Positions 6,195 through 64,000 of a stretch of DNA of 64,000 nucleotides are shown here, one piece after another. The stretch is from contig NC_088299.1 of assembly GCF_032854445.1 (NCBI RefSeq), forward strand, positions 1,091,001 through 1,155,000, given 5' to 3'. The stretch is from Liolophura sinensis (taxonomy: Eukaryota; Mollusca; Polyplacophora; Chitonida; Chitonidae). Position 1 is the stretch's first letter. Each line of letters begins with the position of its first letter. Under the pieces are notes generated by a model. That model was not told the origin of the DNA. It searched no databases and worked only from the letters and a program-made list of their open reading frames with translations. The position numbers and the translations under genes were made by a program.

Positions 6195-6728
6195 ATGGTG
6201 GTATATTTTTTTTTATTGAGAAACAGGTACCGAACTGTTGGATGCCTTTATGTTAGAGTCCGAACAGAATGTAGACCTGGTGATTATTTCCCCTTCTCTT
6301 GGGACTGCCCCGTTTTGCAAAACCACACCCTTCCAAACGACTTGAAAACAGCCCTGGAAATGGAATGTCAGGAGAGGTGTTTGCCCGTCAACCTCTTTCA
6401 CAGCGCCCTCACGTATCCTTGTGAGCCTATCTTAGCCAGAGAGACGAACTTGTTGTGTAGACTGAGCAAACTCCGACCATTTCAGCCAGAGAGGGTCCGA
6501 GAACTGCAAGACTTTTACAAGTACCAGACAGCCTTAGTTGAGACTGAGAGATACCGAAGTCTCATGCTAGGCGACGCACATCCCCACTTAAAAGTGCTCC
6601 TTAACCAGTACTACGACCAGGAACTTGGGTTGATAATAAAGAGAGTAGAGGCCAGTGTCGCCTTATTAGAAGACAGTGGCATCGGTTCCTGTCTTAACGA
6701 AAACGATCGGGAGGAACAGATTGGATAA
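6195..6728 (+). pseudogene. Array-edge N-terminal fragment of TALE homeobox gene
   Basis: Homology with the array protein begins near 6254 (ECRPGDYFPFSWDCPVLQ, codons 93-110) and runs to codon 235. It then switches at 6696/6697 into spacer sequence, adding NENDREEQIG and a TAA. The homeodomain is therefore absent. The first 20 or so residues (from ATG 6195) are flanking DNA. Just upstream, a T-rich tract followed by GAGAAACAG (about 6205-6228) resembles a splice acceptor, so the ancestral gene may have had an intron here; that is inference. This is the leftmost and most diverged copy. Confidence 0.8.
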
Positions 6729-7012
6729 ACAATCAATAGTCAGATTTCTCCACCTTGTTTTATTGCATGGAAACACAATTCTACTGGTTATCAGACTCAG
6801 TATTCGTCAGCTCTTTGAAAGACACAAAGTGTGGTAGCGTACCATTTTAAGCCATATTAAATGCAAAGATTACGAAATGGCTTTCACTGAAAAAGAAATA
6901 CGTCAAACTGTTTCAGCTGTCAAAGAATTACTTCTTTATGATTAATTAATAAAGGTCGACGTCGTATATGTAAAACTTGAAACGAGCGTCTCACTTGATC
7001 TAAAACTGTGGT
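6729..7012 (+). repeat. Partial spacer between the first N-only/C-only pair
   Basis: 285-base spacer fragment containing the ATGCAAAG motif and the 22-codon MAFTEKEI micro-ORF (from about 6877). Unlike the pairs at 9706 and 18876 it keeps 36 bases around TTATGATTAATTAATAAAGG, so it is the least-deleted version of this junction. Confidence 0.85.
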
Positions 7013-7684
7013 GTGGTGCAAAACCACACCCTTCCAAACGACTTGAAAACAGCCCTGGAAATGGAATGTCAGGAGAGGTGTTTGCCCGTCAACCTCTTTC
7101 ACAGCGCCCTCACGTATCCTTGTGAGCCTATCTTAGCCAGAGAGACGAACTTGTTGTGTAGACTGAGCAAACTCCAACCATTTCAGCCGGAGAGGGTCCG
7201 AGAACTGCAAGACTTTTACAAGTACCAGACAGCCTTAGTTGAGACTGAAAGATACCGAAGTCTCATGCTAGGCGACGCACATCCGCACTTAAAAGTGCTC
7301 CTTAACCAGTACTACGACCAGGAACTTGGGTTGATAATAAAGAGAGTAGAGGCCAGTGTCGCCTTATTAGAAGACAGTGGCATCGGTTCCTGTCTTAGTA
7401 GAGAAGCCCAGGTCGTGGCAAGCAACATCAGCAGAAGACATCTTGGCTTAAGGACCAGATCGCTTTTGTCCAAAGCATCTGTCCGTTTGTTGGAGCTGTG
7501 GTATGAACAACACATCGACCACCCTTACCCTACACCCTCTGAGACTGAAAGTTTGGCTACAGCATGTGGTTTGACACAGGAACAAGTTAAAAAGTGGTTT
7601 GCCAACAAGAGAAATCGATCAGCCAATACCAGGTCCTTAACACAAATTGCAAGTGTTAAGAGGAAGCGGTCCATGATGATGTAG
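7013..7684 (+). pseudogene. C-terminal-only TALE homeobox copy
   Basis: Starts at a spacer-to-gene junction (about 7013-7017, after CTGTGGTGT). It reads from codon 109 of the full gene to the normal end, so the helical region and whole homeodomain are present but the promoter, start codon and first 108 codons are missing. The first in-frame ATG corresponds to Met124 of the full gene. It is the only copy with Cys at position 292 (TACGLTQ); every other copy has Gly. Cys at this point is usual in TALE helix 2-3 turns, so this edge copy probably keeps the ancestral state. Confidence 0.8.
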
Positions 7685-8967
7685 TGTGAAATGTTTCCCT
7701 TTATAATTGCAGTGCTTTACTCTCTTTCTAATAGTGCTATAATTTTATATGTTTCTTCATGCAAAATGGAATGAATATTAAAAACAGTTGAGTTAAACAT
7801 GATTTTTGTCTTCTTGTCATTACCAATACCACTTTTGTGAAAAGTGCAACACCGCCTACTGCAATTTTCACAGGTGAAAATTGACGATGGCTGGATTCGA
7901 ACTTACAATACAGTTAGTTCATCAAGCGGTATAATTTAAGGAGTATATGTGAAAAACTGCTTGCTCCTAAAGAAAATTCATAAAATGTTGACAGAGTGCT
8001 TCAAGCTTAATTTGATGTTGCCACATTGATAATAAATGTGTGTTTGAGTAATTTCCTGCTTTTATTCAACGCCAGCGAAAACGATCAGGAGGAACAGATT
8101 GGAAAAACAATCAATAGTCAGATTTCTCCACCTTGTTTTATTGTATGCAAACACAATTCTACTGGTTATCAGACTCAGTATTCGTCAGCTCTTTGAAAGA
8201 CACAAAGTGTGGTAGCGTACCATTTTAAGCCATATTAAATGCAAAGATTACGAAATGGCTTTCACTGAAAAAGAAATACGTCAAACTGTTTCAGCTGTCA
8301 AAGAATTACTTCTTTATGATTAATTAATAAAGGTCGACGTCGTATATGTAAAACTTGAAACGAGCGTCTCACTTGATCTAAAACTGTGGTGTGAATATTG
8401 AGAAAATGATATAATCGACTTACTTTTCTGACGCCGCCTACACTTATGGAGATATTTTCTCTGTTAAATGAGATCGTCTCATCGCTTGAAGTAGACGTAT
8501 TGGGATAGAATGGTTTCATCACCTCTGCTCAGTCTTTCAAGTAGACGCATTGGGATAGAATAGGTTCGTCACCTCTGCTCAACCTTTGAAGTAGACGTAT
8601 TGCCAGAGAATGGCTTCATCACCTCTGCCGGCTACACAGTTAAGACCATTTAAAGAAAGAAGTCGGTCGCTACACTTTACCCCCCAGGCGGCCCACCCTT
8701 GTAGCTGAAGATGTAAAATCTGATACAGCTGCTACTGGATTAACGCCCTAACAATTTTAAGACGCCAAACAGCAGGAAAGGTGAGCATCAGTTCACAAGA
8801 AACCATACTTTTGGTTGATTCCAAATATCGTTCACCACAGTGGCCTATCAAATTGCTGCCTTCTACCCAGCATATAAGACACGATTTGCTTTAAAACTCG
8901 ACAACACTGAGCTTTACGTGTCACACTTCCAAGTGGAATTTAACTAAGCACAAATCGCTGAAGCACT
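7685..8967 (+). repeat. Full-length array spacer (left type)
   Basis: A 1283-base spacer with the layout described for 22072-23354. Its CCAAT position reads CCTAT (about 8844). It carries left-type markers such as GTCTTCTTGTC (regular units read GTCTCCTTGTC). Confidence 0.85.
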
Positions 8968-9705
8968 ATGGCTTTTTCTAACGCCTCAAGTAACCAAAAT
9001 GTCTACTCTAATTTAGCTACAGGTGTTGAGAGGACTATCTCCAAGGATGAGGATGGTAAAGACACATTGCAGACTCTGTGCGACCTCGTCGGTATATCAT
9101 CACAGTGCACCTCGACTGAAAATGCCAAAGATGACATTAAGACTGAAATCCAACCCGTCTACGTCGGCGATAATCACCACTGTGGAGTTGAAGAATCAGC
9201 TCAGATCACTGTAAGGACAGAAAGTTGTCCGAGTCCCGTAACAGAGTGTCGACCTGGCGATTATTTCCCCTTCTCTTGGGACTGCCCCGTTTTGCAAAAC
9301 CACACCCTCCCAAACGACTTGAAAACAGCCCTGGAAATGGAATGTCAGGAGAGGTGTTTGCCCGTCAACCTCTTTCACAGCGCCCTCACGTATCCTTGTG
9401 AGCCTATCTTAGCCAGAGAGACGAACTTGTTGTGTAGACTGAGCAAACTCCGACCATTTCAGCCAGAGAGGGTCCGAGAACTGCAAGACTTTTACAAGTA
9501 CCAGACAGCCTTAGTTGAGACTGAGAGATACCGAAGTCTCATGCTAGGCGACGCACATCCCCACTTAAAAGTGCTCCTTAACCAGTACTACGACCAGGAA
9601 CTTGGGTTGATAATAAAGAGAGTAGAGGCCAGTGTCGCCTTATTAGAAGACAGTGGCATCGGTTCCTGTCTTAACGAAAACGATCGGGAGGAACAGATTG
9701 GATAA
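8968..9705 (+). CDS. Truncated TALE-family protein lacking the homeodomain (N-only, 245 aa)
   Basis: Has the full promoter region and the normal ATG with codons 1-235, then an in-frame switch into downstream spacer DNA adding NENDREEQIG before TAA. The deletion removed codons 236-330, the 3' UTR and the first part of the spacer. If expressed it would keep the N-terminal region and helical segment but have no DNA-binding domain or C-terminal basic tail. It could be a decaying copy or a dominant-interfering form; the sequence does not decide. An essentially identical copy sits at 18138. Confidence 0.7.
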   Translation: MAFSNASSNQNVYSNLATGVERTISKDEDGKDTLQTLCDLVGISSQCTSTENAKDDIKTEIQPVYVGDNHHCGVEESAQITVRTESCPSPVTECRPGDYFPFSWDCPVLQNHTLPNDLKTALEMECQERCLPVNLFHSALTYPCEPILARETNLLCRLSKLRPFQPERVRELQDFYKYQTALVETERYRSLMLGDAHPHLKVLLNQYYDQELGLIIKRVEASVALLEDSGIGSCLNENDREEQIG

Positions 9706-9953
9706 ACAATCAATAGTCAGATTTCTCCACCTTGTTTTATTGCATGGAAACACAATTCTACTGGTTATCAGACTCAGTATTCGTCAGCTCTTTGAAAGAC
9801 ACAAAGTGTGGTAGCGTACCATTTTAAGCCATATTAAATGCAAAGATTACGAAATGGCTTTCACTGAAAAAGAAATACGTCAAACTGTTTCAGCTGTCAA
9901 AGAATTACTTCTAAAACTTGAAACGAGCGTCTCACTTGATCTAAAACTGTGGT

Positions 9954-10625
9954 GTGGTGCAAAACCACACCCTTCCAAACGACTTGAAAACAGCCCTGGA
10001 AATGGTATGTCAGGAGAGGTGTTTGCCCGTCAAACTCTTTCACAGCGCCCTCACGTATCCTTGTGAGCCTATCTTAGCCAGAGAGACGAACTTGTTGTGT
10101 AGACTGAGCAAACTCCGACCATTTCAGCCAGAGAGGGTCCGAGAACTGCAAGACTTTTACAAGTACCAGACAGCCTTAGTTGAGACTGAGAGATACCGAA
10201 GTCTCATGCTAGGCGACGCACATCCGCACTTAAAAGTGCTCCTTAACCAGTACTACGACCAGGAACTTGGGTTGATAATAAAGAGAGTAGAGGCCAGTGT
10301 CGCCTTATTAGAAGACAGTGGCATCGGTTCCTGTCTTAGTAGAGAAGCCCAGGTCGTGGCAAGCAACATCAGCAGAAGACATCTTGGCTTAAGGACCAGA
10401 TCGCTTTTGTCCAAAGCATCTGTCCGTTTGTTGGAGCTGTGGTATGAACAACACATCGACCACCCTTACCCTACACCCTCTGAGACTGAAAGTTTGGCTA
10501 CAGCAGGTGGTTTGACACAGGAACAAGTTAAAAAGTGGTTTGCCAACAAGAGAAATCGATCAGCCAATACCAGGTCCTTAACACAAATTGCAAGTGTTAA
10601 GAGGAAGTGGTCCATGATGATGTAG
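9954..10625 (+). pseudogene. C-terminal-only TALE homeobox copy
   Basis: Second member of the chimeric pair that begins at 8968. Codons 109-330 are intact with Glu125 to Val, Arg at 162 and Arg326 to Trp in the basic tail (KRKWSMMM). The spacer piece in front (9706-9953) is 36 bases shorter than at 6729-7012. It has no recognisable promoter and no initiating ATG in the normal place. Confidence 0.75.
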
Positions 10626-11908
10626 TGTGAAATGTTTCCCTTTATAATTGCAGTGCTTTACTCTCTTTCTAATAGTGCTATAATTTTATATGTTTCTTCA
10701 TGCAAAATGGAATGAATATTAAAAACAGTTGAGTTAAACATGATTTTTGTCTTCTTGTCATTACCAATACCACTTTTGTGAAAAGTGCAACACCGCCTAC
10801 TGCAATTTTCACAGGTGAAAATTGACGATGGCTGGATTCGAACTTACAATACAGTTAGTTCATCAAGCGGTATAATTTAAGGAGTATATGTGAAAAACTG
10901 CTTGCTCCTAAAGAAAATTCATAAAATGTTGACAGAGTGCTTCAAGCTTAATTTGATGTTGCCACATTGATAATAAATGTGTGTTTGAGTAATTTCCTGC
11001 TTTTATTCAACGCCAGCGAAAACGATCAGGAGGAACAGATTGGAAAAACAATCAATAGTCAGATTTCTCCACCTTGTTTTATTGTATGCAAACACAATTC
11101 TACTGGTTATCAGACTCAGTATTCGTCAGCTCTTTGAAAGACACAAAGTGTGGTAGCGTACCATTTTAAGCCATATTAAATGCAAAGATTACGAAATGGC
11201 TTTCACTGAAAAAGAAATACGTCAAACTGTTTCAGCTGTCAAAGAATTACTTCTTTATGATTAATTAATAAAGGTCGACGTCGTATATGTAAAACTTGAA
11301 ACGAGCGTCTCGCTTGATCTAAAACTGTGGTGTGAATATTGAGAAAATGATATAATCGACTTACTTTTCTGACGCCGCCTACACTTATGGAGATATTTTC
11401 TCTGTTAAATGAGATCGTCTCATCGCTTGAAGTAGACGTATTGGGATAGAATGGTTTCATCACCTCTGCTCAGTATTTCAAGTAGACGCATTGGGATAGA
11501 ATAGGTTCGTCACCTCTGCTCAACCTTTGAAGTAGACGTATTGCCAGAGAATGGCTTCATCACCTCTGCCGGCTACACAGTTAAGACCATTTAAAGAAAG
11601 AAGTCGGTCGCTACACTTTACCCCCCAGGCGGCCCACCCTTGTAGCTGAAGATGTAAAATCTGATACAGCTGCTACTGGATTAACGCCCTAACAATTTTA
11701 AGACGCCAAACAGCAGGAAAGGTGAGCATCAGTTCACAAGAAACCATACTTTTGGTTGATTCCAAATATCGTTCACCACAGTGGCCAATCAAATTGCTGC
11801 CTTCTACCCAGCATATAAGACAGGATTTGCTTTAAAACTTGACAACACTGAGCTTTACGTGTCACACTTCCAAGTGGAATTTAACTAAGCACAAATCGCT
11901 GAAGCACT
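10626..11908 (+). repeat. Full-length array spacer
   Basis: Standard spacer layout with an intact CCAAT. Left-type GTCTTCTTGTC marker. Confidence 0.85.
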
Positions 11909-12901
11909 ATGGCTTTTTCTAACGCCTCAAGTAACCAAAATGTCTACTCTAATTTAGCTACAGGTGTTGAGAGGACTATCTCCAAGGATGAGGATGGTAA
12001 AGACACATTGCAGACTCTGTGCGACCTCGTCGGTATATCGTCACAGTGCACCTCGACTGAAAATGCCAAAGATGACATTAAGACTGAAATCCAACCTGTC
12101 TACGTCGGCGATAATCACCACTGTGGAGTTGAAGAATCAGCTCAGATCACTGTAAGGACAGAAAGTTGTCCGAGTCCCGTAAAAGAGTGTCGACCTGGCG
12201 ATTATTTCCCCTTCTCTTGGGACTGCCCCGTTTTGCAAAACCACACCCTTCCAAACGACTTGAAAACAGCCCTGGAAATGGTATGTCAGGAGAGGTGTTT
12301 GCCCGTCAACCTCTTTCACAGCGCCCTCACGTATCCTTGTGAGCCTATCTTAGCCAGAGAGACGAACTTGTTGTGTAGACTCAGCAAACTCCAACCATTT
12401 CAGCCAGAGAGGGTCCGAGAACTGCAAGACTTTTACAAGTACCAGACAGCCTTAGTTGAGACTGAAAGATACCGAAGTCTCATGCTAGGCGACGCACATC
12501 CCCACTTAAAAGTGCTCCTTAACCAGTACTACGACCAGGAACTTGGGTTGATAATAAAGAGAGTAGAGGCCAGTGTCGCCTTATTAGAAGACAGTGGCAT
12601 CGGTTCCTGTCTTAGTAGAGAAGCCCAGGACGTGGCAAGCAACATCAGCAGAAGACATCTTGGCTTAAGGACCAGATCGCTTTTGTCCAAAGCATCTGTC
12701 CGTTTGTTGGAGCTGTGGTATGAACAACACATCGACCACCCTTACCCTACACCCTCTGAGACTGAAAGTTTGGCTACAGCAGGTGGTTTGACACAGGAAC
12801 AAGTTAAAAAGTGGTTTGCCAACAAGAGAAATCGATCAGCCAATACCAGGTCCTTAACACAAATTGCAAGTGTTAAGAGGAAGCGGTCCATGATGATGTA
12901 G
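11909..12901 (+). CDS. TALE-class homeodomain protein, intact copy (leftmost)
   Basis: 330 codons, intact. Compared with the array consensus it has Thr92 to Lys, Glu125 to Val and Val241 to Asp, more amino-acid change than any regular copy, as expected near an array edge. It corresponds to the 21079 copy at an offset of 9170 bp. The CCAAT box is intact. Confidence 0.9.
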   Translation: MAFSNASSNQNVYSNLATGVERTISKDEDGKDTLQTLCDLVGISSQCTSTENAKDDIKTEIQPVYVGDNHHCGVEESAQITVRTESCPSPVKECRPGDYFPFSWDCPVLQNHTLPNDLKTALEMVCQERCLPVNLFHSALTYPCEPILARETNLLCRLSKLQPFQPERVRELQDFYKYQTALVETERYRSLMLGDAHPHLKVLLNQYYDQELGLIIKRVEASVALLEDSGIGSCLSREAQDVASNISRRHLGLRTRSLLSKASVRLLELWYEQHIDHPYPTPSETESLATAGGLTQEQVKKWFANKRNRSANTRSLTQIASVKRKRSMMM

Positions 12902-13844
12902 TGTGAAATGTTTCCCTTTATAATTGCAGTGCTTTACTCTCTTTCTAATAGTGCTATAATTGTATATGTTTCTTCATGCAAAATGGAATGAATATTAAAA
13001 ACAGTTGAGTTAAACATGATTTTTGTCTTCTTGTCATTACCAATACCACTTTTGTGAAAAGTGCAACACCACCTACTGCAATTTTCACAGGTGAAAATTG
13101 ACGATGGCTGGATTCGAACTTACAATACAGTTAGTTCATCAAGCGGCATAATTTAAGTATATGTGAAAAACTGCTTGCTCCTAAAGAAAAATTCATTAAT
13201 GGCTTTCACTGAAAAAGAAATAGGTCAAACTGTTTCAGCTGTCAAAGAATTACTTCTTTATGATTAATTAATAAAGGTCGACGTCGTATATGTAAAACTT
13301 GGAACAAGCGTCTCACTTGATCTAAAACTGTGGTGTGAATATTGAGAAAATGATATAATCGACTTACTTTTCTGACGCCGCCTAGACTTATGGAGATATT
13401 TTCTCTGTTAAATGAGATCGTCTCATCGCTTGAAGTAGACGTATTGGGATAGAATGGTTTCATCACCTCTGCTCAGCCTTTCAAGTAGACGCATTGGGAT
13501 AGAATAGGTTCGTCACCTCTGCTCAACCTTTGAAGTAGACGTATTGCCAGAGAATGGCTTCATCACCTCTGCCGGCTACACAGTTAAGATCATTTAAAGA
13601 AAGAAGTCGGTCGCTACACTTTACCCCCAGGCGGCCCACCCTTGTAGCTGAAGATGTAAAATCTGATACAGCTGCTACTGGATTAACGCCCCAACAATTT
13701 TAAGACGCCAAACAGCAGGAAAGGTGAGCATCAGTTCACAAGAAACCATACTTTTGGTTGATTCCAAATATCGTTCACCACAGTGGCCAATCAAATTGCT
13801 GCCTTCTACCCAGCATATAAGACACGATTTGCTTTAAAACTTGA
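12902..13844 (+). repeat. Spacer with internal deletion, interrupted by LINE insertion
   Basis: Relative to a normal spacer, roughly 235 bases between AAATTCAT and TAATGGCTTTC (around 13195) are missing. The 50-bp repeat triplet, CCAAT and TATA-like box remain. The sequence is then cut at AAAACTTGA (13836-13844) by the retrotransposon. Confidence 0.8.
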
Positions 13845-14728
13845 AAACTTGTCATCTAAAAATATATACTGACGGATCTAAAAATGTGCAGGGTCACACT
13901 GGATCATCATTTGCAATACCAGATCTAAACATAGTTAAAAACTATAAACTACCCAACCACCTCTCCGTCTATACTAGTGAATTAGTTGAAATTACAATGG
14001 CACTACAATGGATTCTTGAGAACAAACCAAACCGAGTAGCCATACTAAGCGACTCCCTCAGCGGTATAATTTCCATCCAAAACTCCAAATCTGAGAGTAG
14101 ACCAGACCTCCTACAAGAAATAATCTCGCTAACTGACAAAATACAGAAACAAAAAACCGACCTGACTCTAGCATGGGTTCCAGCGCACGTTAATATTCGA
14201 GGAAATGAAATTGCAGATCAGGCAGCAAAATCGAGCCTACGAAAATATGAACAAGATATAGACGTCCCCCTGAGCCAAAATGAAATATATACATTGATCA
14301 ATACCCAAATTAACAATCAGTGGAAAGAGGAATGGGATAAAGAATCCCGCGTACGGTGGCACTATAAAATATTAAACGGAACGATTGCAAAATTAAATTC
14401 GTTCCAATTATTGAATAACCAAGATGACAAAAACATATCACGCCTGAGACTAGGGAAAACAGGGCTCAAAGCACATCTAGCAACTATAATCCAAAATTCT
14501 TCACCAACTTGCCCAGCCTGTCAAGAGCATGATGAAACCATAGAGCACTATTTGCTACAATGTATTAAACACAGTAAAGAACGAAGACGATTGGCAGAAT
14601 GCCTGCAAATCTACAAATGTGAACTTGACCTTCAGACTATCCTTAACCCCAAACCACACCTGAGAGCACAAATATTCTCCTTACTAAAAGAATACATCAA
14701 ATCGACGGGTTACGAAAGCCGAATCTGA
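13844..14728 (+). CDS. LINE ORF2 C-terminus: RNase H and CCHC knuckle (partial)
   Basis: RNase H type I motifs appear in order: YTDGSK (catalytic Asp11, numbering from the TTG at 13841), TSELVEI (Glu47), LSDSLSGI (Asp71), WVPAHVNIRGNEIADQAAK (His116, Asp126). A C-terminal CPAC-X8-H-X4-C zinc-binding element follows (Cys224, Cys227, His236, Cys241), as in the tails of many LINE ORF2 proteins. All four carboxylates are present, so this domain may have been functional before 5' truncation. There is no true start codon: the frame enters directly from the insertion boundary, with an array TAA a few codons upstream. Confidence 0.9.
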   Translation, partial: KTCHLKIYTDGSKNVQGHTGSSFAIPDLNIVKNYKLPNHLSVYTSELVEITMALQWILENKPNRVAILSDSLSGIISIQNSKSESRPDLLQEIISLTDKIQKQKTDLTLAWVPAHVNIRGNEIADQAAKSSLRKYEQDIDVPLSQNEIYTLINTQINNQWKEEWDKESRVRWHYKILNGTIAKLNSFQLLNNQDDKNISRLRLGKTGLKAHLATIIQNSSPTCPACQEHDETIEHYLLQCIKHSKERRRLAECLQIYKCELDLQTILNPKPHLRAQIFSLLKEYIKSTGYESRI

Positions 14729-14747
14729 TAAAACACAATTGACCAAC

Positions 14748-14959
14748 AACGGCGATACCTTGATTCTGAGGGCCGTTTCTGCTCTAGTCAACAATACGTC
14801 ACCTTCTCTGATTAAAAACGGTGCATTCTCCGTAATTACACATATACTAACAACGGCGATACCTTGATTTTGAGGGCCGTTTATTCCACAGATACATAAT
14901 TCCTCCCTACAACTTTATCCCCAACTATATCGGCGATACCTTGATCTTGAGGGCCGATA
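14748..14959 (+). ncRNA. Three hairpins in the retrotransposon 3' region
   Basis: Three copies of a stem-loop: stems AACGGC/GCCGTT at 14748-14753/14772-14777 and 14852-14857/14876-14881, and TATCGGC/GCCGATA at 14928-14934/14953-14959. All loops start GATACCTTGAT. The third copy has paired changes on both stem sides, which supports real base pairing. They probably serve as RNA structures for the element, which is inference. Confidence 0.7.
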
Positions 14960-15323
14960 AAACGTCCATGAAACCAATCTGCAAAAACATAGCACACGAA
15001 AACAATGTAACCACAAAAGTTGATAACTGTAGTAATTAATAATATTTCTCCATTAACTAATCTGCCCTCTTATTTGTTGTTATTTATCTATTCTTATTAG
15101 TTGATATTTATTTTCTATTTATTTACAAATGTGTATATATCATACGAGGGCAGACCCTCTATCAATTTCTGATTGGTAGGTATACCACTAATTTGCTCCT
15201 AAATATCTGTTTTATCAAATATTTTCTTGCTTAAGATATACATTATCTCATAAACAAAACCCCTTCGCAAATCAAAAATACAACTATCTTGTATATTTGT
15301 TTTCTCTATTTGTTTTCACAGGG
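14960..15323 (+). other. AT-rich retrotransposon 3' region
   Basis: Non-coding AT-rich sequence ending in TTTGTTTTCACAG (about 15308-15320), which looks like a splice acceptor placed just before the A18 tract and the next ORF. Confidence 0.5.
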
Positions 15324-15341
15324 AAAAAAAAAAAAAAAAAA
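15324..15341 (+). repeat. Internal A18 tract
   Basis: Eighteen consecutive A immediately upstream of the ATG at 15344. Possible former poly(A) junction of two templates fused during reverse transcription. Confidence 0.85.
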
Positions 15342-15343
15342 GG

Positions 15344-15910
15344 ATGAAAATCTTTATTATCGGCAGCAGTTACGTTCATAGACTGGAGAATAGTATCCTT
15401 CGAAATTCGATCCCAAACTCTAGAATCGACTTTGGAACAGGCCAGGACATTCGGTTTTTTGGCATTGGGGGAGCTAGAGTTGGGACACTTAGATGCTCTG
15501 GAAGATTGGAAAGTCTCCTTCAGGAGACAAAACCTGACCTAGTTATCCTTCACATTGGGGGAAACGATGCGGACTCTCACAAATCAGCAGCAGCAATTTG
15601 CGCTGATATTTTAGACTATGTTGGTGCACTTAAAACGAAATTCCAAATTCCAAGGATCTACATCAGCCAGCTTCTTTACCGTCAGGTAACTCGGCGAATT
15701 TCGGTCCACATTTATAATACAAAAATCCATGAAATTAACAAGAAGCTGACAAACAACCAATTGGCCACCTTCTGGAGACACCGGGGACTGATCCGACCAC
15801 AAAAACAAATTCTAACCAACGACGGAGTGCACCTAAACACTCTAGGCCAGGAACTGTTCTACCGGTCTATGAAACGTGCTGTCTGCGCCGCCATGGGAGG
15901 CCAAAAATAA
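15344..15910 (+). CDS. SGNH/GDSL-hydrolase-like protein carried by the retrotransposon
   Basis: 188 aa. The SGNH blocks are recognisable: IIGSSYV at residues 5-11 (nucleophile block, GSS instead of GDS), FFGIGGARV (38-46, block II), LHIGGNDAD (69-77, GxND block with Asn74), and NDGVHLN (159-165, Asp160/His163, block V). The length fits a single SGNH domain with no signal peptide or membrane segment. SGNH-type domains are known in ORFs of several animal retrotransposons, where an esterase role is proposed but unproven. It lies inside the same target-site duplication as the RNase H fragment, so it was mobilised with it. Confidence 0.75.
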   Translation: MKIFIIGSSYVHRLENSILRNSIPNSRIDFGTGQDIRFFGIGGARVGTLRCSGRLESLLQETKPDLVILHIGGNDADSHKSAAAICADILDYVGALKTKFQIPRIYISQLLYRQVTRRISVHIYNTKIHEINKKLTNNQLATFWRHRGLIRPQKQILTNDGVHLNTLGQELFYRSMKRAVCAAMGGQK

Positions 15911-16554
15911 AAATTGGAAATAGAGAAGGAAATCAATTAAAGAAGAAGACAGGGAAAACAATAAGAAGACTCATGGGACCAAAGAAACTTAACAACCAGG
16001 AAACGAAGACCAGAAACATGAAAGACATCATGACAATAGGACTATCTCTTGCTTCAACTAAGTGGATGAGGCCTGACATCCTATCCTTGCTCCTCATTTA
16101 TACTTGTCGCACCTGTTACAGGCACAGGTTTCCAGTACGCTGGTTTTTCCTGGACGGCGTCCGGTATAAGTGGCGGGAGCTCCTTAACTCCACGCCACAG
16201 AGGAGGAAGCAAGAGAACAAAACTGTTAACCAATAAATAAAGGCACTACTGTTGTTTTCTCTCTGTGTAAATTTCTGTATAGGCAAATCATTGTAATTTT
16301 TTAATGCAGATCTATGTATCTCTAATGTAAAGATAACGTTAATCCCTGTAAATAGCTTACTATTTATCCCCTTTCTGTTAAATAACCATGGCAGCATTTG
16401 AACCTATAGAATAAGCTGTAACATGCTACCACAAAGAGGTTAATCCCACTAATTGACTCATGTACATATGTAAATAGTATACCAACGCACTGCTGTTATG
16501 TAACCAAAATATTCATGTGTTAAAAAAAAAAATAATAATAAAACACTGATTGAT
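15911..16554 (+). other. Retrotransposon 3' untranslated region
   Basis: AT-rich, with overlapping AATAAATAAA polyadenylation-like signals (about 16232-16241) and (TAA)n near 16531. The 87-codon frame at 15973-16236 shows no recognisable domain and is not called as a gene. Confidence 0.5.
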
Positions 16555-16584
16555 GGGCCACGATATCCGCCAGGAAAGTGGCCC
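16555..16584 (+). ncRNA. 3'-terminal hairpin of the retrotransposon
   Basis: Perfect 7-bp stem GGGCCAC/GTGGCCC (16555-16561/16578-16584) with a 16-base loop beginning GATA, about ten bases before the terminal A-tract. LINE reverse transcriptases commonly recognise such 3' stem-loops. The loop start resembles the three upstream hairpins. Confidence 0.65.
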
Positions 16585-16617
16585 TAAAACCAGTAAAAAA
16601 AAAAAAAAAAAACTTGA

Positions 16618-16852
16618 CAACACTGAGCTTTACGTGTCACACTTCCAAGTGGAATTTAACTAGCTGTGGTATGAACAACACATCGACCACCCTTACCCTA
16701 CACCCTCTGAGACTGAAAGTTTGGCTACAGCAGGTGGTTTGACACAGGAACAAGTTAAAAAGTGGTTTGCCAACAAGAGAAATCGATCAGCCAATACCAG
16801 GTCCTTAACACAAATTGCAAGTGTTAAGAGGAAGCGGTCCATGATGATGTAG
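16618..16852 (+). pseudogene. Homeodomain-only remnant after the LINE
   Basis: Normal leader sequence (to TTTAACTA, 16661) is joined directly to codon 269 of the gene, deleting the ATG and about 268 codons. The junction creates an in-frame TAG at 16661-16663 in front of LWYEQH. Residues 269-330 and the normal stop follow. No product is expected. Confidence 0.85.
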
Positions 16853-18137
16853 TGTGAAATGTTTCCCTTTATAATTGCAGTGCTTTACTCTCTTTCTAAT
16901 AGTGCTATAATTTTATATGTTTCTTCATGCAAAATGGAATGAATATTAAAAACAGTTGAGTTAAACATGATTTTTTGTCTTCTTGTCAATACCAATACCA
17001 CTTTTGTGAAAAGTGCAACACCGCCTACTGCAATTTTCACTGGTGAAAATTGACGATGGCTGGATTCGAACTTACAATACAGTTAGTTCATCAAGCGGTA
17101 TAATTTAGGAGTATATGTGAAAAACTGCTTGCTCCGAAAGAAAATTCATAAAATGTTGACAGAGTGCTTCAAGCTTAATTTGATGTTGCCACATTGATAA
17201 TAAATGTGTGTTTGAGTAATTTCCTGCTTTTATTCAACGCCAGCGAAAACGATCGGGAGGAACAGATTGGAAAAACAATCAATAGTCAGATTTCTCCACC
17301 TTGTTTTATTGTATGCAACACAATTCTACTGGTTATCAGACTCAGTATTCGTCAGCTCTTTGAAAGACACAAAAGTGTGGTAGCGTACCATTTTAAGCCA
17401 TATTAAATGCAAAGATTACGAAATGGCTTTCACTGAAAAAGAAATACGTCAAACTGTTTCAGCTGTCAAAGAATTACTTCTTTATGATTAATTAATAAAG
17501 GTCGACGTCGTATATGTAAAACTTGAAACGAGCGTCTCACTTGATCTAAAACTGTGTGTGAATATTGAGAAAATGATATAATCGACTTACTTTTCTGACG
17601 CCGCCTACACTTATGGAGATATTTTCTCTGTTAAATGAGATCGTCTCATCGCTTGAAGTAGACGTATTGGGATAGAATGGTTTCATCACCTCTGCTCAGT
17701 CTTTCAAGTAGACGCATTGGGATAGAATAGGTTCGTCACCTCTGCTCAACCTTTGAAGTAGACGTATTGCCAGAGAATGGCTTCATCACCTCTGCCGGCT
17801 ACACAGTTAAGACCATTTAAAGAAAGAAGTCGGTCGCTACACTTTACCCCCCAGGCGGGCCCACCCTTGTAGCTGAAGAATGTAAAATCTGATACAGCTG
17901 CTACTGGATTAACGCCCTAACAATTTTAAGACGCCAAACAGCAGGAAAGGTGAGCATCAGGTTCACAAGAAACCATACTTTTGGTTGATTCCAAATATCG
18001 TTCACCACAGTGGCCAATCAAATTGCTGCCTTCTACCCAGCATATAAGACACGATTTGCTTTAAAACTTGACAACACTGAGCTTTACGTGTCACACTTCC
18101 AAGTGGAATTTAACTAAGCACAAATCGCTGAAGCACT
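16853..18137 (+). repeat. Full-length array spacer (diverged)
   Basis: 1285 bases with several single-base indels relative to other spacers (for example GGCGGGCCC, GAAGAATGT and CAGGTTCAC near 17850-17960). Both palindromes are kept, with TG instead of AG at the centre of the second (about 17041). The CCAAT box is intact. Confidence 0.8.
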
Positions 18138-18875
18138 ATGGCTTTTTCTAACGCCTCAAGTAACCAAAATGTCTACTCTAATTTAGCTACAGGTGTTGAG
18201 AGGACTATCTCCAAGGATGAGGATGGTAAAGACACATTGCAGACTCTGTGCGACCTCGTCGGTATATCATCACAGTGCACCTCGACTGAAAATGCCAAAG
18301 ATGACATTAAGACTGAAATCCAACCCGTCTACGTCGGCGATAATCACCACTGTGGAGTTGAAGAATCAGCTCAGATCACTGTAAGGACAGAAAGTTGTCC
18401 GAGTCCCGTAACAGAGTGTCGACCTGGCGATTATTTCCCCTTCTCTTGGGACTGCCCCGTTTTGCAAAACCACACCCTCCCAAACGACTTGAAAACAGCC
18501 CTGGAAATGGAATGTCAGGAGAGGTGTTTGCCCGTCAACCTCTTTCACAGCGCCCTCACGTATCCTTGTGAGCCTATCTTAGCCAGAGAGACGAACTTGT
18601 TGTGTAGACTGAGCAAACTCCGACCATTTCAGCCAGAGAGGGTCCGAGAACTGCAAGACTTTTACAAGTACCAGACAGCCTTAGTTGAGACTGAGAGATA
18701 CCGAAGTCTCATGCTAGGCGACGCACATCCCCACTTAAAAGTGCTCCTTAACCAGTACTACGACCAGGAACTTGGGTTGATAATAAAGAGAGTAGAGGCC
18801 AGTGTCGCCTTATTAGAAGACAGTGGCATCGGTTCCTGTCTTAACGAAAACGATCGGGAGGAACAGATTGGATAA
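18138..18875 (+). CDS. N-only TALE-family protein lacking the homeodomain (245 aa)
   Basis: Duplicate of the 8968 copy at an offset of 9170 bp, with the same in-frame switch after codon 235 and the same NENDREEQIG tail. Its survival as an open frame in two duplicated blocks is compatible with either recency or use. Unlike 8968 it has an intact CCAAT. Confidence 0.7.
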   Translation: MAFSNASSNQNVYSNLATGVERTISKDEDGKDTLQTLCDLVGISSQCTSTENAKDDIKTEIQPVYVGDNHHCGVEESAQITVRTESCPSPVTECRPGDYFPFSWDCPVLQNHTLPNDLKTALEMECQERCLPVNLFHSALTYPCEPILARETNLLCRLSKLRPFQPERVRELQDFYKYQTALVETERYRSLMLGDAHPHLKVLLNQYYDQELGLIIKRVEASVALLEDSGIGSCLNENDREEQIG

Positions 18876-19123
18876 ACAATCAATAGTCAGATTTTTCCAC
18901 CTTGTTTTATTGCATGGAAACACAATTCTACTGGTTATCAGACTCAGTATTCGTCAGCTCTTTGAAAGACACAAAGTGTGGTAGCGTACCATTTTAAGCC
19001 ATATTAAATGCAAAGATTACGAAATGGCTTTCACTGAAAAAGAAATACGTCAAACTGTTTCAGCTGTCAAAGAATTACTTCTAAAACTTGAAACGAGCGT
19101 CTCACTTGATCTAAAACTGTGGT

Positions 19124-19795
19124 GTGGTGCAAAACCACACCCTTCCAAACGACTTGAAAACAGCCCTGGAAATGGTATGTCAGGAGAGGTGTTTGCCCGT
19201 CAAACTCTTTCACAGCGCCCTCACGTATCCTTGTGAGCCTATCTTAGCCAGAGAGACGAACTTGTTGTGTAGACTGAGCAAACTCCGACCATTTCAGCCA
19301 GAGAGGGTCCGAGAACTGCAAGACTTTTACAAGTACCAGACAGCCTTAGTTGAGACTGAGAGATACCGAAGTCTCATGCTAGGCGACGCACATCCCCACT
19401 TAAAAGTGCTCCTTAACCAGTACTACGACCAGGAACTTGGGTTGATAATAAAGAGAGTAGAGGCCAGTGTCGCCTTATTAGAAGACAGTGGCATCGGTTC
19501 CTGTCTTAGTAGAGAAGCCCAGGTCGTGGCAAGCAACATCAGCAGAAGACATCTTGGCTTAAGGACCAGATCGCTTTTGTCCAAAGCATCTGTCCGTTTG
19601 TTGGAGCTGTGGTATGAACGACACATCGACCACCCTTACCCTACACCCTCTGAGACTGAAAGTTTGGCTACAGCAGGTGGTTTGACACAGGAACAAGTTA
19701 AAAAGTGGTTTGCCAACAAGAGAAATCGACCAGCCAATACCAGGTCCTTAACACAAATTGCAAGTGTTAAGAGGAAGCGGTCCATGATGATGTAG
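19124..19795 (+). pseudogene. C-terminal-only TALE homeobox copy
   Basis: Duplicate of 9954 at 9170 bp offset. Differences from consensus are Glu125 to Val, Gln273 to Arg in homeodomain helix 1 (YERHIDHPYP) and Ser310 to Pro. The last is shared with the next full copy at 21079, so a conversion or exchange tract links them. The promoter and first 108 codons are missing. Confidence 0.75.
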
Positions 19796-20579
19796 TGTGA
19801 AATGTTTCCCTTTATAATTGCAGTGCTTTACTCTCTTTCTAATAGTGCTATAATTTTATATGTTTCTTCATGCAAAATGGAATGAATATTAAAAACAGTT
19901 GAGTTAAACATGATTTTTGTCTCCTTGTCATTACCAATACCACTTTTGTGAAAAGTGCAACACCGCCTACTGCAATTTTCACAGGTGAAAATTGACGATG
20001 GCTGGATTCGAACTTACAATACAGTTAGTTCATCAAGCGGTATAATTTAAGGAGTATATGTGAAAAACTGCTTGCTCCTAAAGAAAATTCATAAAATGTT
20101 GACAGAGTGCTTCAAGCTTAATTTGATGTTGCCACGTTGATAATAAGTGTGTGTTTGAGTAATTTCCTGCTTTTATTCAACGCCAGCGAAAACGATCAGG
20201 AGGAACAGATTGCAAAAACAATCAATTGTCAGATTTCTCCACCTTGTTTTATTGTATGCAAACACAATTCTACTGGTTATCAGACTCAGTATTCGTCAGC
20301 TCTTTGAAAGACACAAAGTGTGGTAGCGTACCATTTTAAGCCATATTAAATGCAAAGATTACGAAATGGCTTTCACTGAAAAAGAAATAGGTCGAACTGT
20401 TTCAGCGGTCAAAGAATTACTTCTTTATGATTAATTAATAAAGGTCGACGTCGTATATGTAAAACTTGGAACAAGCGTCTCACTTGATCTAAAACTGTGG
20501 TGTGAATATTGAGAAAATGATATAATCCACTTACTTTTCTGACGCCGCCTAGACTTATGGAGATATCTTCTCTGTTAAA

Positions 20580-20592
20580 TGAGATCGTCTCA
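20580..20592 (+). promoter_or_regulatory. Palindrome TGAGATCGTCTCA before the 50-bp repeats
   Basis: Five-base arms with a three-base centre (TGAGA TCG TCTCA), ending four bases before the 50-bp repeat triplet. Present at the same place in every complete spacer. Possible protein-binding site; function unknown. Confidence 0.5.
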
Positions 20593-20596
20593 TCGC

Positions 20597-20740
20597 TTGA
20601 AGTAGACGTATTGGGATAGAATGGTTTCATCACCTCTGCTCAGCCTTTCAAGTAGACGCATTGGGATAGAATAGGTTCGTCACCTCTGCTCAACCTTTGA
20701 AGTAGACGTATTGCCAGAGAATGGCTTCATCACCTCTGCC
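20597..20740 (+). repeat. Triplet of 50-bp tandem repeats in the spacer (representative)
   Basis: Three head-to-tail copies starting at 20597, 20647 and 20697, each opening TT(G/C)AAGTAGACG(T/C)ATTG and ending TCACCTCTGC. They lie about 340-480 bases before the ATG and occur in every complete spacer of the array. Conservation of copy number and position suggests a regulatory role, comparable to spacer enhancer repeats of other tandem gene arrays; that role is inference. Confidence 0.8.
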
Positions 20741-20891
20741 GGCTACACAGTTAAGACCATTTAAAGAAAGAAGTCGGTCGCTACACTTTACCCCCCAGGC
20801 GGCCCACCCTTGTAGCTGAAGATGTAAAATCTGATACAGCTGCTACTGGATTAACGCCCTAACAATTTTAAGACGCCAAACAGCAGGAAAG

Positions 20892-20981
20892 GTGAGCATC
20901 AGTTCACAAGAAACCATACTTTTGGTTGATTCCAAATATCGTTCACCACAGTGGCCAATCAAATTGCTGCCTCCTACCCAG
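20892..20981 (+). promoter_or_regulatory. Possible 90-base 5'-UTR intron (representative)
   Basis: GGAAAG|GTGAGC is a strong splice donor match, and 90 bases on comes a pyrimidine-rich GCTGCCTCCTACCCAG acceptor. If used, transcription starts upstream of 20892 and the TATA-like box is not the core promoter. The spacer before 46111 has an inserted G that spoils the donor (GTGGAGC). Confidence 0.35.
20955..20959 (+). promoter_or_regulatory. CCAAT box (representative, polymorphic)
   Basis: GGCCAATCAAA about 124 bases before the ATG and 25 bases before the TATA-like box. Intact before 11909, 18138, 21079, 25631, 32459, 41558, 46111, 48387, 50664, 52940, 57488, 59764, 62040. Changed to CCACT before 23355, 27907, 30183, 34735, 37006, 39282, 43834, 55212, and to CCTAT before 8968. 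Confidence 0.55.
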
Positions 20982-20983
20982 CA

Positions 20984-20989
20984 TATAAG
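20984..20989 (+). promoter_or_regulatory. TATA-like box TATAAG (representative)
   Basis: GCATATAAGA 95 bases before the ATG, present in all units with a complete leader. Transcription would start near TTGACAACACTGAG (about 21010), giving a 5' UTR of about 65 bases. The start codon context ACTATGG (A at -3, G at +4) is strong. Confidence 0.55.
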
Positions 20990-21078
20990 ACACGATTTGC
21001 TTTAAAACTTGACAACACTGAGCTTTACGTGTCACACTTCCAAGTGGAATTTAACTAAGCACAAATCGCTGAAGCACT

Positions 21079-22071
21079 ATGGCTTTTTCTAACGCCTCAA
21101 GTAACCAAAATGTCTACTCTAACTTAGCTACAGGTGTTGAGAGGACTATCTCCAAGGATGAGGATGGTAAAGACACATTGCAGACTCTGTGCGACCTCGT
21201 CGGTATATCGTCACAGTGCACCTCGACTGAAAATGCCAAAGATGACATTAAGACTGAAATCCAACCTGTCTACGTCGGCGATAATCACCACTGTGGAGTT
21301 GAAGAATCAGCTCAGATCACTGTAAGGACAGAAAGTTGTCCGAGTCCCGTAACAGAGTGTCGACCTGGCGATTATTTCCCCTTCTCTTGGGACTGCCCCG
21401 TTTTGCAAAACCACACCCTTCCAAACGACTTGAAAACAGCCCTGGAAATGGAATGTCAGGAGAGGTGTTTGCCCGTCAACCTCTTTCACAGCGCCCTCAC
21501 GTATCCTTGTGAGCCTATTTTAGCCAGAGAGACGAACTTGTTGTGTAGACTGAGCAAACTCCAACCATTTCAGCCAGAGAGGGTCCGAGAACTGCAAGAC
21601 TTTTACAAGTACCAGACAGCCTTAGTTGAGACTGAAAGATACCGAAGTCTCATGCTAGGCGACGCACATCCCCACTTAAAAGTGCTCCTTAACCAGTACT
21701 ACGACCAGGAACTTGGGTTGATAATAAAGAGAGTAGAGGCCAGTGTCGCCTTATTAGAAGACAGTGGCATCGGTTCCTGTCTTAGTAGAGAAGCCCAGGT
21801 CGTGGCAAGCAACATCAGCAGAAGACATCTTGGCTTAAGGACCAGATCGCTTTTGTCCAAAGCATCTGTCCGTTTGTTGGAGCTGTGGTATGAACAACAC
21901 ATCGACCACCCTTACCCTACACCCTCTGAGACTGAAAGTTTGGCTACAGCAGGTGGTTTGACACAGGAACAAGTTAAAAAGTGGTTTGCCAACAAGAGAA
22001 ATCGACCAGCCAATACCAGGTCCTTAACACAAATTGCAAGTGTTAAGAGGAAGCGGTCCATGATGATGTAG
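21079..22071 (+). CDS. TALE-class homeodomain transcription factor (reference copy of the regular array)
   Basis: 330 aa, single exon. Residues 1-90 are acidic and serine-rich. Residues 93-150 hold a conserved-looking WDCP and cysteine-containing block. Residues 155-235 are predicted helical (QYYDQELGLIIKRVEASVALLE), with faint similarity to the PBC-B region of Pbx proteins. Residues about 250-314 form a TALE homeodomain: the three-residue loop extension reads PYP (278-280), and recognition helix 3 reads QVKKWFANKRNR with invariant Trp302, Phe303, Asn305 and Arg307. Position 50 of the homeodomain is Ala (304), as in Iroquois proteins, not the Gly of Pbx or Ile of Meis/Tgif. The tail SVKRKRS is a likely nuclear signal. 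TALE proteins bind TGACA/TGAT-type DNA. The divergent, amplified form points to the spiralian SPILE group, whose limpet members act in early embryonic patterning; that assignment is inference. This copy has Ser310 to Pro. Confidence 0.93.
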   Translation: MAFSNASSNQNVYSNLATGVERTISKDEDGKDTLQTLCDLVGISSQCTSTENAKDDIKTEIQPVYVGDNHHCGVEESAQITVRTESCPSPVTECRPGDYFPFSWDCPVLQNHTLPNDLKTALEMECQERCLPVNLFHSALTYPCEPILARETNLLCRLSKLQPFQPERVRELQDFYKYQTALVETERYRSLMLGDAHPHLKVLLNQYYDQELGLIIKRVEASVALLEDSGIGSCLSREAQVVASNISRRHLGLRTRSLLSKASVRLLELWYEQHIDHPYPTPSETESLATAGGLTQEQVKKWFANKRNRPANTRSLTQIASVKRKRSMMM

Positions 22072-22163
22072 TGTGAAATGTTTCCCTTTATAATTGCAGT
22101 GCTTTACTCTCTTTCTAATAGTGCTATAATTTTATATGTTTCTTCATGCAAAATGGAATGAAT

Positions 22164-22169
22164 ATTAAA
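22164..22169 (+). terminator. Polyadenylation signal ATTAAA (representative)
   Basis: The common variant ATTAAA lies about 93 bases after the stop in GAATATTAAAAACAG and is conserved in all units that keep the 3' end. It implies a short 3' UTR. Confidence 0.6.
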
Positions 22170-22216
22170 AACAGTTGAGTTAAACATGATTTTTGTCTCC
22201 TTGTCATTACCAATAC

Positions 22217-60756: not shown

Positions 60757-62039
60757 TGTGAAATGTTTCCCTTTATAACTGCGGTGCTTTACTCTCTTTC
60801 TAATAGTGCTATAATTTTATATGTTTCTTCATGCAAAATGGAATGAATATTAAAAACAGTTGAGTTAAACATGATTTTTGTCTCCTTGTCATTACCAATA
60901 CCACTTTTGTGAAAAGTGCAACACCGCCTACTGCAATTTTCACAGGTGAAAATTGACGATGGCTGGATTCGAACTTACAATACAGTTAGTTCATCAAGCG
61001 GTATAATTTAAGGAGTATATGTGAAAAACTGCTTGCTCCTAAAGAAAATTCATAAAATGTTGACAGAGTGCTTCAAGCTTAATTTGATGTTGCCACGTTG
61101 ATAATAAGTGTGTGTTTGAGTAATTTCCTGCTTTTATTCAACGCCAGCGAAAACGATCAGGAGGAACAGATTGCAAAAACAATCAATAGTCAGATTTCTC
61201 CACCTTGTTTTATTGTATGCAAACACAATTCTACTGGTTATCAGACTCAGTATTCGTCAGCTCTTTGAAAGGCACAAAGTGTGGTAGCGTACCATTTTAA
61301 GCCATATTAAATGCAAAGATTACGAAATGGCTTTCACTGAAAAAGAAATAGGTCGAACTGTTTCAGCGGTCAAAGAATTACTTCTTTATGATTAACTAAT
61401 AAAGGTCGACGTCGTATATGTAAAACTTGGAACAAGCGTCTCACTTGATCTAAAACTGTGGTGTGAATATTGAGAAAATGATATAATCCACTTACTTTTC
61501 TGACGCCGCCTAGACTTATGGAGATATCTTCTCTGTTAAATGAGATCGTCTCATCGCTTGAAGTAGACGTATTGGGATAGAATGGTTTCATCACCTCTGC
61601 TCAGCCTTTCAAGTAGACGCATTGGGATAGAATAGGTTCGTCACCTCTGCTCAACCTTTGAAGTAGACGTATTGCCAGAGAATGGCTTCATCACCTCTGC
61701 CGGCTACACAGTTAAGACCATTTAAAGAAAGAAGTCGGTCGCTACACTTTACCCCCCAGGCGGCCCACCCTTGTAGCTGAAGATGTAAAATCTGATACAG
61801 CTGCTACTGGATTAACGCCCTAACAATTTTAAGACGCCAAACAGCAGGAAAGGTGAGCATCAGTTCACAAGAAACCATACTTTTGGTTGATTCCAAATAT
61901 CGTTCACCACAGTGGCCAATCAAATTGCTGCCTCCTACCCAGCATATAAGACACGATTTGCTTTAAAACTTGACAACACTGAGCTTTACGTGTCACACTT
62001 CCAAGTGGAATTTAACTAAGCACAAATCGCTGAAGCACT

Positions 62040-63032
62040 ATGGCTTTTTCTAACGCCTCAAGTAACCAAAATGTCTACTCTAACTTAGCTACAGGTGTTG
62101 AGAGGACTATCTCCAAGGATGAGGATGGTAAAGACACATTGCAGACTCTGTGCGACCTCGTCGGTATATCGTCACAGTGCACCTCGACTGAAAATGCCAA
62201 AGATGACATTAAGACTGAAATCCAACCTGTCTACGTCGGCGATAATCACCACTGTGGAGTTGAAGAATCAGCTCAGATCACTGTAAGGACAGAAAGTTGT
62301 CCGAGTCCCGTAACAGAGTGTCGACCTGGCGATTATTTCCCCTTCTCTTGGGACTGCCCCGTTTTGCAAAACCACACTTTTCCAAACGACTTGAAAACAG
62401 CCCTGGAAATGGAATGTCAGGAGAGGTGTTTGCCCGTCAACCTGTTTCACAGCGCCCTCACGTATCCTTGTGAGCCTATCTTAGCCAGAGAGACGAACTT
62501 GTTGTGTAGACTGAGCAAACTCCAACCATTTCAGCCAGAGAGGGTCCGAGAACTGCAAGACTTTTACAAGTACCAGACAGCCTTAGTTGAGACTGAAAGA
62601 TACCGAAGTCTCATGCTAGGCGACGCACATCCCCACTTAAAAGTGCTCCTTAACCAGTACTACGACCAGGAACTTGGGTTGATAATAAAGAGAGTAGAGG
62701 CCAGTGTCGCCTTATTAGAAGACAGTGGCATCGGTTCCTGTCTTAGTAGAGAAGCCCAGGTCGTGGCAAGCAACATCAGCAGAAGACATCTTGGCTTAAG
62801 GACCAGATCGCTTTTGTCCAAAGCATCTCTCCGTTTGTTGGAGCTGTGGTATGAACAACACATCGACCACCCTTACCCTACACCCTCTGAGACTGAAAGT
62901 TTGGCTACAGCAGGTGGTTTGACACAGGAACAAGTTAAAAAGTGGTTTGCCAACAAGAGAAATCGATCAGCCAATACCAGGTCCTTAACACAAATTGCAA
63001 GTGTTAAGAGGAAGCGGTCCATGATGATGTAG
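62040..63032 (+). CDS. TALE-class homeodomain protein, intact copy (rightmost)
   Basis: 330 aa with Val264 to Leu (shared with 57488) and a private Leu114 to Phe. Intact CCAAT. Confidence 0.93.
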   Translation: MAFSNASSNQNVYSNLATGVERTISKDEDGKDTLQTLCDLVGISSQCTSTENAKDDIKTEIQPVYVGDNHHCGVEESAQITVRTESCPSPVTECRPGDYFPFSWDCPVLQNHTFPNDLKTALEMECQERCLPVNLFHSALTYPCEPILARETNLLCRLSKLQPFQPERVRELQDFYKYQTALVETERYRSLMLGDAHPHLKVLLNQYYDQELGLIIKRVEASVALLEDSGIGSCLSREAQVVASNISRRHLGLRTRSLLSKASLRLLELWYEQHIDHPYPTPSETESLATAGGLTQEQVKKWFANKRNRSANTRSLTQIASVKRKRSMMM

Positions 63033-64000
63033 TGTGAAATGTTTCCCTTTATAACTGCGGTGCTTTACTCTCTTTCTAATAGTGCTATAATTTTATATGT
63101 TTCTTCATGCAAAATGGAATGAATATTAAAAACAGTTGAGTTAAACATGATTTTTGTCTCCTTGTCATTACCAATACCACTTTTGTGAAAAGTGCAACAC
63201 CGCCTACTGCAATTTTCACAGGTGAAAATTGACGATGGCTGGATTCGAACTTACAATACAGTTAGTTCATCAAGCGGTATAATTTAAGGAGTATATGTGA
63301 AAAACTGCTTGCTCCTAAAGAAAATTCATAAAATGTTGACAGAGTGCTTCAAGCTTAATTTGATGTTGCCACGTTGATAATAAGTGTGTGTTTGAGTAAT
63401 TTCCTGCTTTTATTCAACGCCAGCGAAAACGATCAGGAGGAACAGATTGCAAAAACAATCAATAGTCAGATTTCTCCACCTTGTTTTATTGTATGCAAAC
63501 ACAATTCTACTGGTTATCAGACTCAGTATTCGTCAGCTCTTTGAAAGGCACAAAGTGTGGTAGCGTACCATTTTAAGCCATATTAAATGCAAAGATTACG
63601 AAATGGCTTTCACTGAAAAAGAAATAGATCGAACTGTTTCAGCGGTCAAAGAATTACTTCTTTATGATTAACTAATAAAAGTCGACGTCGTATATGTAAA
63701 ACTTGGAACAAGCGTCTCACTTGATCTAAAACTGTGGTGTGAATATTGAGAAAATGATATAATCCACTTACTTTTCTGACGCCGCCTAGACTTATGGAGA
63801 TATCTTCTCTGTTAAATGAGATCGTCTCATCGCTTGAAGTAGACGTATTGGGATAGAATGGTTTCATCACCTCTGCTTCAGCCTTTCAAGTAGACGCATT
63901 GGGATAGAATAGGTTCGTCACCTCTGCTCAACCTTTGAAGTAGACGTATTGCCAGAGAATGGCTTCATCACCTCTGCCGGCTACACAGTTAAGACCATTT
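63033..64000 (+). repeat. Array spacer, cut by window edge
   Basis: First 968 bases of a right-type spacer, including the micro-ORF and 50-bp triplet, with one extra T (CTGCTTCAGCC, about 63879). No sign of an array boundary. Confidence 0.9.

Follow-up and report, generated by a model that had tools for sequence, protein, structure and literature searches.

Analysis of a 64,000-bp stretch of the genome of the chiton Liolophura sinensis (C5:1091001-1155000, hereafter the window; C5 as a whole comprises 19,479,325 bp) revealed a tandem array of a homeobox gene of the TALE class. A 2276-bp unit is repeated head-to-tail on the + strand from window position 6256, through the edge of the window, to C5:1163450 (window-equivalent 72450). 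The end of the array, located by a blastn search with the unit starting at window position 21079, lies 8.45 kb past the window edge, and the total length is approximately 66 kb. On balance, we favour the view that the array consists of copies of a SPILE-group gene with a single open reading frame (ORF), most likely of the A/C type, which would be expressed in a pulse in cleavage embryos, its multiplication serving the dosage of the product.

Organization of the array and its units

The regular part of the array begins with unit U01 at window position 21079 and is composed of 22 full units of 2271-2278 bp, which follow one another without interruption up to window-equivalent 71145 and are succeeded by 1305 bp of an incomplete unit. 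Within the window (21079-64000, + strand), 18 units are complete and the 19th, starting at 62040, is cut by the edge. The mean pairwise identity among the 22 units is 99.5%, with a minimum of 98.6% (substitutions only). Macrosatellites are made of homogenized head-to-tail units longer than 1 kb, present in tens of copies, and 22 units of ~2276 bp form an array of this size and kind. Variation in copy number between individuals, a further property of macrosatellites, would be expected here by analogy with D4Z4. Tandem Repeats Finder (TRF), with its 500-bp limit, detected only a 50-bp minisatellite in the spacer and not the 2276-bp unit. ARAGORN predicted no tRNA genes within the window.

A PF05920 search of the genome (609,464,459 bp in 632 contigs) returned at least 56 matches, at least 28 of them in the array and at least 28 elsewhere. 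Twenty-four of the 28 homeodomain copies of the array are located inside the window; a small number of the 28 are truncated or contain a frameshift. The motif KKWFANKR occurs 27 times (24 in the window); the 28th copy, that of U22, has an indel at this position. Three extra in-window copies without a homeodomain were distinguished by blastn (6256-6696, 8968-9673 and 18138-18843). The first-pass annotation had counted at least 27 complete or partial copies, which agrees with these 24 and three, and its description of a head-to-tail, macrosatellite-sized array still open at the window edge is borne out by the continuation beyond that edge. The full 330-codon ORF is kept in 18 copies, 17 of which are in the window; they encode seven distinct proteins, and a single protein is encoded by 11 of the 18. 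Among the regular units 17 of 22 are intact, and in U11, U14, U15, U20 and U22 the ORF is disrupted by frameshifts or a stop codon. According to unit comparison, the ORF of U11 (43834-46110, + strand) is broken by several small indels, which may be either consensus errors or decay.

The array copy number rests on one assembly. The published Liolophura japonica assembly was obtained from 14x HiFi data with a mean read length of 8,347 bp (PMC11068029), and since such a read spans only ~3.7 units, the number may be wrong. The clustered small indels in some units, such as U11, are perhaps consensus errors and would also suit an explanation in which most of the copies are products of the assembly, through expansion or the chimeric joining of two haplotypes. 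We consider this improbable, as the units are distinguished by shared, position-dependent variants and no N is present in the array stretches read (the window pieces and the continuation beyond the edge).

Each unit contains a 993-bp ORF and a 1283-bp spacer, and has a G+C content of 42%. The representative ORF (21079-22071, + strand) encodes a 330-amino acid (aa) protein in which the TALE homeodomain occupies aa 254-309 and is preceded by an upstream domain (approximately aa 89-227). The spacer that follows it (22072-23354, + strand) includes an ATTAAA signal, the minisatellite (22876-23015; 50-bp period, 2.8 copies in TRF) and a TATA-like box at 23258, and the next ATG is at 23355. In all 22 regular units the TATA-like box (CATATAAGA, unit position 2180) is found 96 bp upstream of the next ATG, and ATTAAA (unit position 1086) 93 bp downstream of the stop codon; the closest AATAAA within the spacer is 642 bp past the stop. 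The stretch that leads up to the next ATG, downstream of the TATA-like box, is presumed to be the 5′ untranslated region (5′UTR). The proposal that every copy has its own promoter-like spacer and polyadenylation signal thus applies to the regular units, but not to the rearranged left part, where not every truncated or fused copy has a full spacer.

The gene was originally described as intronless. Homeodomain and upstream domain are indeed encoded by one uninterrupted ORF of 330 codons, but this is not peculiar to the array: in two relatives found elsewhere in the genome, L013 and L011, the upstream domain and the homeodomain(s) are likewise placed together in one ORF. The absence of introns therefore seems to be a family trait here. 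Because both relatives are also single-ORF in this part, retroposition, the source of intronlessness in the case of DUX4, need not be invoked and was set aside.

The left edge of the array (6256-21078, + strand) is built of fused and truncated units, with joints between unit positions 706 and 1385 and between unit positions 1702 and 326, and contains one intact ORF (11909-12901). ORF reading also distinguished two 245-aa frames of identical form and ends (8968-9705 and 18138-18875, both on the + strand), which retain the N-terminus and the upstream domain and lack the homeodomain; it is a matter of speculation that such proteins, if expressed, could compete with the full protein. A retroelement-like insert (13849-16608, + strand) with ORFs for an RNase H (PF00075) and a GDSL hydrolase (PF13472) is also present in this part.

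Affinities of the array protein

Homeodomains of the TALE class have three extra residues, which form the PYP loop. The array protein contains the sequence HPYPTPSE and matches PF05920 (Homeobox_KN) over its full length (positions 1-40 of 40, E 8.4e-15). Its nearest solved structures are PKNOX1, extradenticle and Meis, while matches to structures of the DUX4 type are limited to E values of 5e-4 to 8e-4. The assignment to the TALE class made in the first-pass annotation is therefore sound. DUX4 is also encoded by a single ORF, and its homeodomains are of the PRD type; the array protein has one TALE homeodomain in place of a double PRD-type one. When the structure of the 330-aa protein was predicted from the single sequence, the mean predicted local distance difference test score was 43, and values above 70 were obtained in the homeodomain region only.

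The genome encodes a TGIF1 relative and other TALE genes which we take, from sequence patterns, to be PBX, PKNOX, MEIS, IRX and MKX. It also carries orphan TALE genes, including L011, with two homeodomains in one ORF. The upstream domain of the array protein is common to L013 and, in part, to L011. Residues 86-250 align with the upstream regions of these proteins at 10.4 (L013) and 11.5 (L011) standard deviations above shuffled sequences, scores reached by none of 1000 shuffles, and all three proteins have the pattern A.AGG....QVK.W.ANKR.R..NT in common. L013 (C5:384246-384914), a single-ORF SPILE-like gene with the shared upstream domain, is separated from the array by 0.71 Mb of the same chromosome. 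The 65 genome candidates listed include just two further near relatives, a copy that has decayed (C5:4.43 Mb) and a fragment of the N-terminal part (C2).

To the first-pass proposal that the gene is related to SPILE, a homeodomain phylogeny had been suggested as a check. The tree, built with the sequences at hand, comprises 18 homeodomains and 65 columns, has long branches, and its rows do not include published SPILE sequences. A branch supported at 96/96 separated the array, its decayed copy, L013, both homeodomains of L011, L016 and PBX/exd from the orphans L007 and L012 and from TGIF, PKNOX, IRX and MKX. A SPILE-like set without PBX/exd was supported at 54/27 only. In topology tests (approximately unbiased, AU), neither the grouping of the array with PBX (p-AU 0.238) nor that with Irx/Mkx (p-AU 0.073) was rejected. 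The phylogeny thus recovers the SPILE-like set together with PBX and does not separate the two, so that it leaves the choice between a SPILE and a PBX-near place undecided. The alignment of the upstream regions is better evidence for the affinity of the array than this tree.

Two homeodomains are the published mark of B-clade SPILE proteins, and the A/C, B and D clades are described as having PADRE or a similar domain upstream (PMC8524836). The two homeodomains of L011 match the mark of the B clade, while each array ORF encodes one TALE homeodomain, as in the A/C clade. The upstream domain was compared with L013 and L011; its likeness to PADRE would be one of position and published description. 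The anatomy of the array gene, with an upstream domain and a single homeodomain, is SPILE-like and would fit an A/C-type gene, a label that we infer by elimination and from chiton precedent. Membership of the array in a different divergent TALE group, for instance one derived from PBC, is quite unlikely. Such an origin would agree with the lack of separation between the SPILE-like set and PBX in the tree, but it does not account for the upstream domain and the homeodomain pattern held in common with L013 and L011.

Outside the TALE class, six homeobox genes that are presumably of the SIX type, judging by a sequence pattern, were distinguished within ~2.1 Mb of C6 (12.70-14.76 Mb; L015, L017-L020 and L022).

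Homogenization, constraint and proposed role

The difference between units grows with their separation in the array (Spearman 0.42, a value not reached in any of 2000 permutations), and in two pairs the units have no substitution between them. As closer units are more alike, local unequal crossing-over or gene conversion is indicated, and the pattern bears the mark of concerted evolution, in which the units would be homogenized by such local exchange.

The 18 intact copies, a set that excludes nonsense variants by choice, contain 8 synonymous variants at 215 sites and 8 nonsynonymous variants at 775 sites (binomial p 0.012). Diversity across 17 units is 0.0025 in the coding part and 0.0055 in the spacer. 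These values suggest weak purifying selection on the array gene, short of proof of function.

In the explanation that we favour, each unit would be its own transcription unit, with the TATA-like box and ATTAAA surrounding the gene. The array would be switched on briefly in cleavage embryos, by analogy with the A/C SPILE genes of a mussel and a limpet, for which zygotic expression from the 4-16-cell stage is described (PMC8524836), and by analogy with D4Z4. With many identical copies, a single DNA-binding protein could accumulate rapidly over a small number of short cell cycles, and such a pulse of a TALE factor might help to set quartet fates, a process in which SPILE genes are described as acting in the limpet (PMC8524836). 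It is from the copy number alone that we infer the dosage role.

Several observations weigh against this explanation. Apart from the equivocal homeodomain tree and the possible error in copy number, 10 of the 28 homeodomain copies lack a full ORF. Under the mutation spectrum of the spacer itself the signal of constraint has a p value of 0.06, and the proportions of variable sites, 11 of 990 in the coding part and 25 of 1283 in the spacer, show no clear difference (Fisher p 0.13). Codon positions of the differences between the array gene and two diverged sequences, L014 (23, 14 and 24; p 0.22) and L023 (7, 5 and 9), show no clear skew either.

The broken copies and the weak constraint, as well as the rearranged left edge with its retroelement-like insert, would be expected if a SPILE gene happened to be located in an amplifying segment, so that the work is done by one copy or a few, with the others carried along as passengers and homogenized by unequal exchange. 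The proportion of pseudogenes is similar in rabbit LEUTX, at 11 of 27 (PMC8208926). We regard this neutral, satellite-like expansion as a real but minor possibility. It is less easily reconciled with 18 intact ORFs that encode just seven distinct proteins, 11 of the ORFs encoding the same one, with a coding diversity of about half that of the spacer, and with the recurrence of tandem A/C SPILE copies in another chiton and a limpet (PMC8524836).

Relics, mobile elements and known homeobox arrays

Two relics of the unit were found outside the array. L014 (C5:4428592-4430551) is a decayed copy with stop codons, located on the same chromosome at a distance of 3.3 Mb. In L023 (C2:24910812-24914044), the promoter and ~58 initial codons of the array gene, at 88% identity, are followed by a minisatellite with ~50 blastn matches, mostly at 56-bp spacing, which is derived from ORF bases 506-562 and has no open frame. 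Since the diverged L023 keeps the TATA region, the array promoter would predate the present homogeneity of the array.

A dispersed family of elements (L024-L029 and L036-L039) contains the 5′UTR of the array gene (unit positions ~2210-2274) in two pieces. We take these elements to be long interspersed nuclear element (LINE)-like on the basis of an ORF1 zinc-knuckle pattern and their dispersed copies; Pfam revealed no family in the ORF1-like piece, and no search aimed at reverse transcriptase was made. The sequence CACTTCCAAGTGGAATTTAACTAAG is present within two mismatches in eight LINE-like copies, and the longest shared stretch, of 41 identical bases in L029, ends 2 bp upstream of the ATG of the gene. 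The sequence CAACACTGAGCTTTACG, located ~28 bp past the TATA-like box in the array gene, is exact in three other LINE-like copies and differs by one base in a further locus, L037. The sequence CACTGAGCTTTACGTG, whole or in part, is also found in some of the copies inspected among the eight bearing CACTTCCAAGTGGAATTTAACTAAG. Outside the array and the LINE-like copies, these search settings gave only L023 (second pattern, one mismatch). Query position 190 was dropped as a candidate for the 5′ end of the family, because a different piece of the same 5′UTR is present in the copies that begin at this point.

Capture of an mRNA 5′ end by reverse transcription would explain these similarities: the shared stretch would then run from approximately the expected transcription start to 2 bp before the ATG, as observed. 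If such capture took place, transcription of the array gene would have to occur in germline-competent cells. In the opposite direction, the gene may instead have recruited the leader of the element as its 5′UTR.

Part of the LINE-like leader matches a second element, starting from inside the TATA-like stretch of the latter. In this element (L032-L035), presumably of the long terminal repeat (LTR) type according to a pol pattern in L032, the 33 bp adjoining the TATA-like stretch are those also present in the leader. As judged from these matches, the LINE-like leader is a mosaic, and for this reason captured mRNA could make up only part of it at most.

Tandem TALE genes have been reported from other molluscs. 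Acanthopleura granulata, also of the family Chitonidae, is described as having seven A/C SPILE genes with nearly identical homeoboxes on one scaffold (Phuangphong et al. 2021, PMC8524836). The two sets are alike in being near-identical TALE homeobox copies placed together on a single scaffold, but, compared by description, the present array has 28 homeodomain copies, most of them within a regular unit of 2276 bp, and seven are reported from A. granulata; by analogy with the present array, the seven may be an undercount. In Lottia gigantea, LgTALEHD 21, 22 and 29-34 form a tandem of eight nearly identical TALE homeodomains judged to be lineage-specific (PMC8524836), which is similar to the chiton array although lower in copy number.

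Outside molluscs, the D4Z4/DUX4 array resembles the present one in its kilobase unit (3.3 kb in D4Z4), its many copies and the presence of a homeobox gene in each unit. However, DUX4 is described as a retrogene with two homeodomains, whereas the chiton gene has a single TALE homeodomain, a unit G+C content of 42% and single-ORF relatives. Rabbit LEUTX, with 27 copies, of which 14 are putatively functional, 11 are pseudogenes and two are uncertain, and mouse Obox, with 66 loci described as highly divergent (PMC8208926), are likewise tandem sets of dozens of embryonically expressed homeobox genes, part of which are pseudogenes. Both are mammalian CRX-derived genes of the PRD class (ETCHbox), unlike the TALE genes of the chiton. 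The claim that dozens-fold, near-identical homeobox arrays are rare is weakened by these published examples. The kind is already known, and the array described here is a larger and more regular example of it; the new features are its scale, its regular unit and the LINE-like family that has the 5′UTR of the gene in common. No description of this array was found in the open-access literature, judged by titles and the beginnings of abstracts.

A broader picture, which we offer tentatively and regard as rather unlikely in its entirety, is that copy number would set the dose of a zygotic cell-fate factor, with the macrosatellite recurrently rebuilt in chitons and limpets, its 5′UTR captured by a LINE-like element, and its organization convergent with that of DUX4, LEUTX and Obox. 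If the reading of copy number as dose is true, the parallel with these three systems would reflect convergence, with tandem homeobox arrays put to use by unrelated animals early in embryonic development. Should the chiton array prove to be active at cleavage stages, the mammalian early-embryo arrays would have an invertebrate parallel, in which the influence of array size on early cell-fate decisions could be tested in a mollusc.

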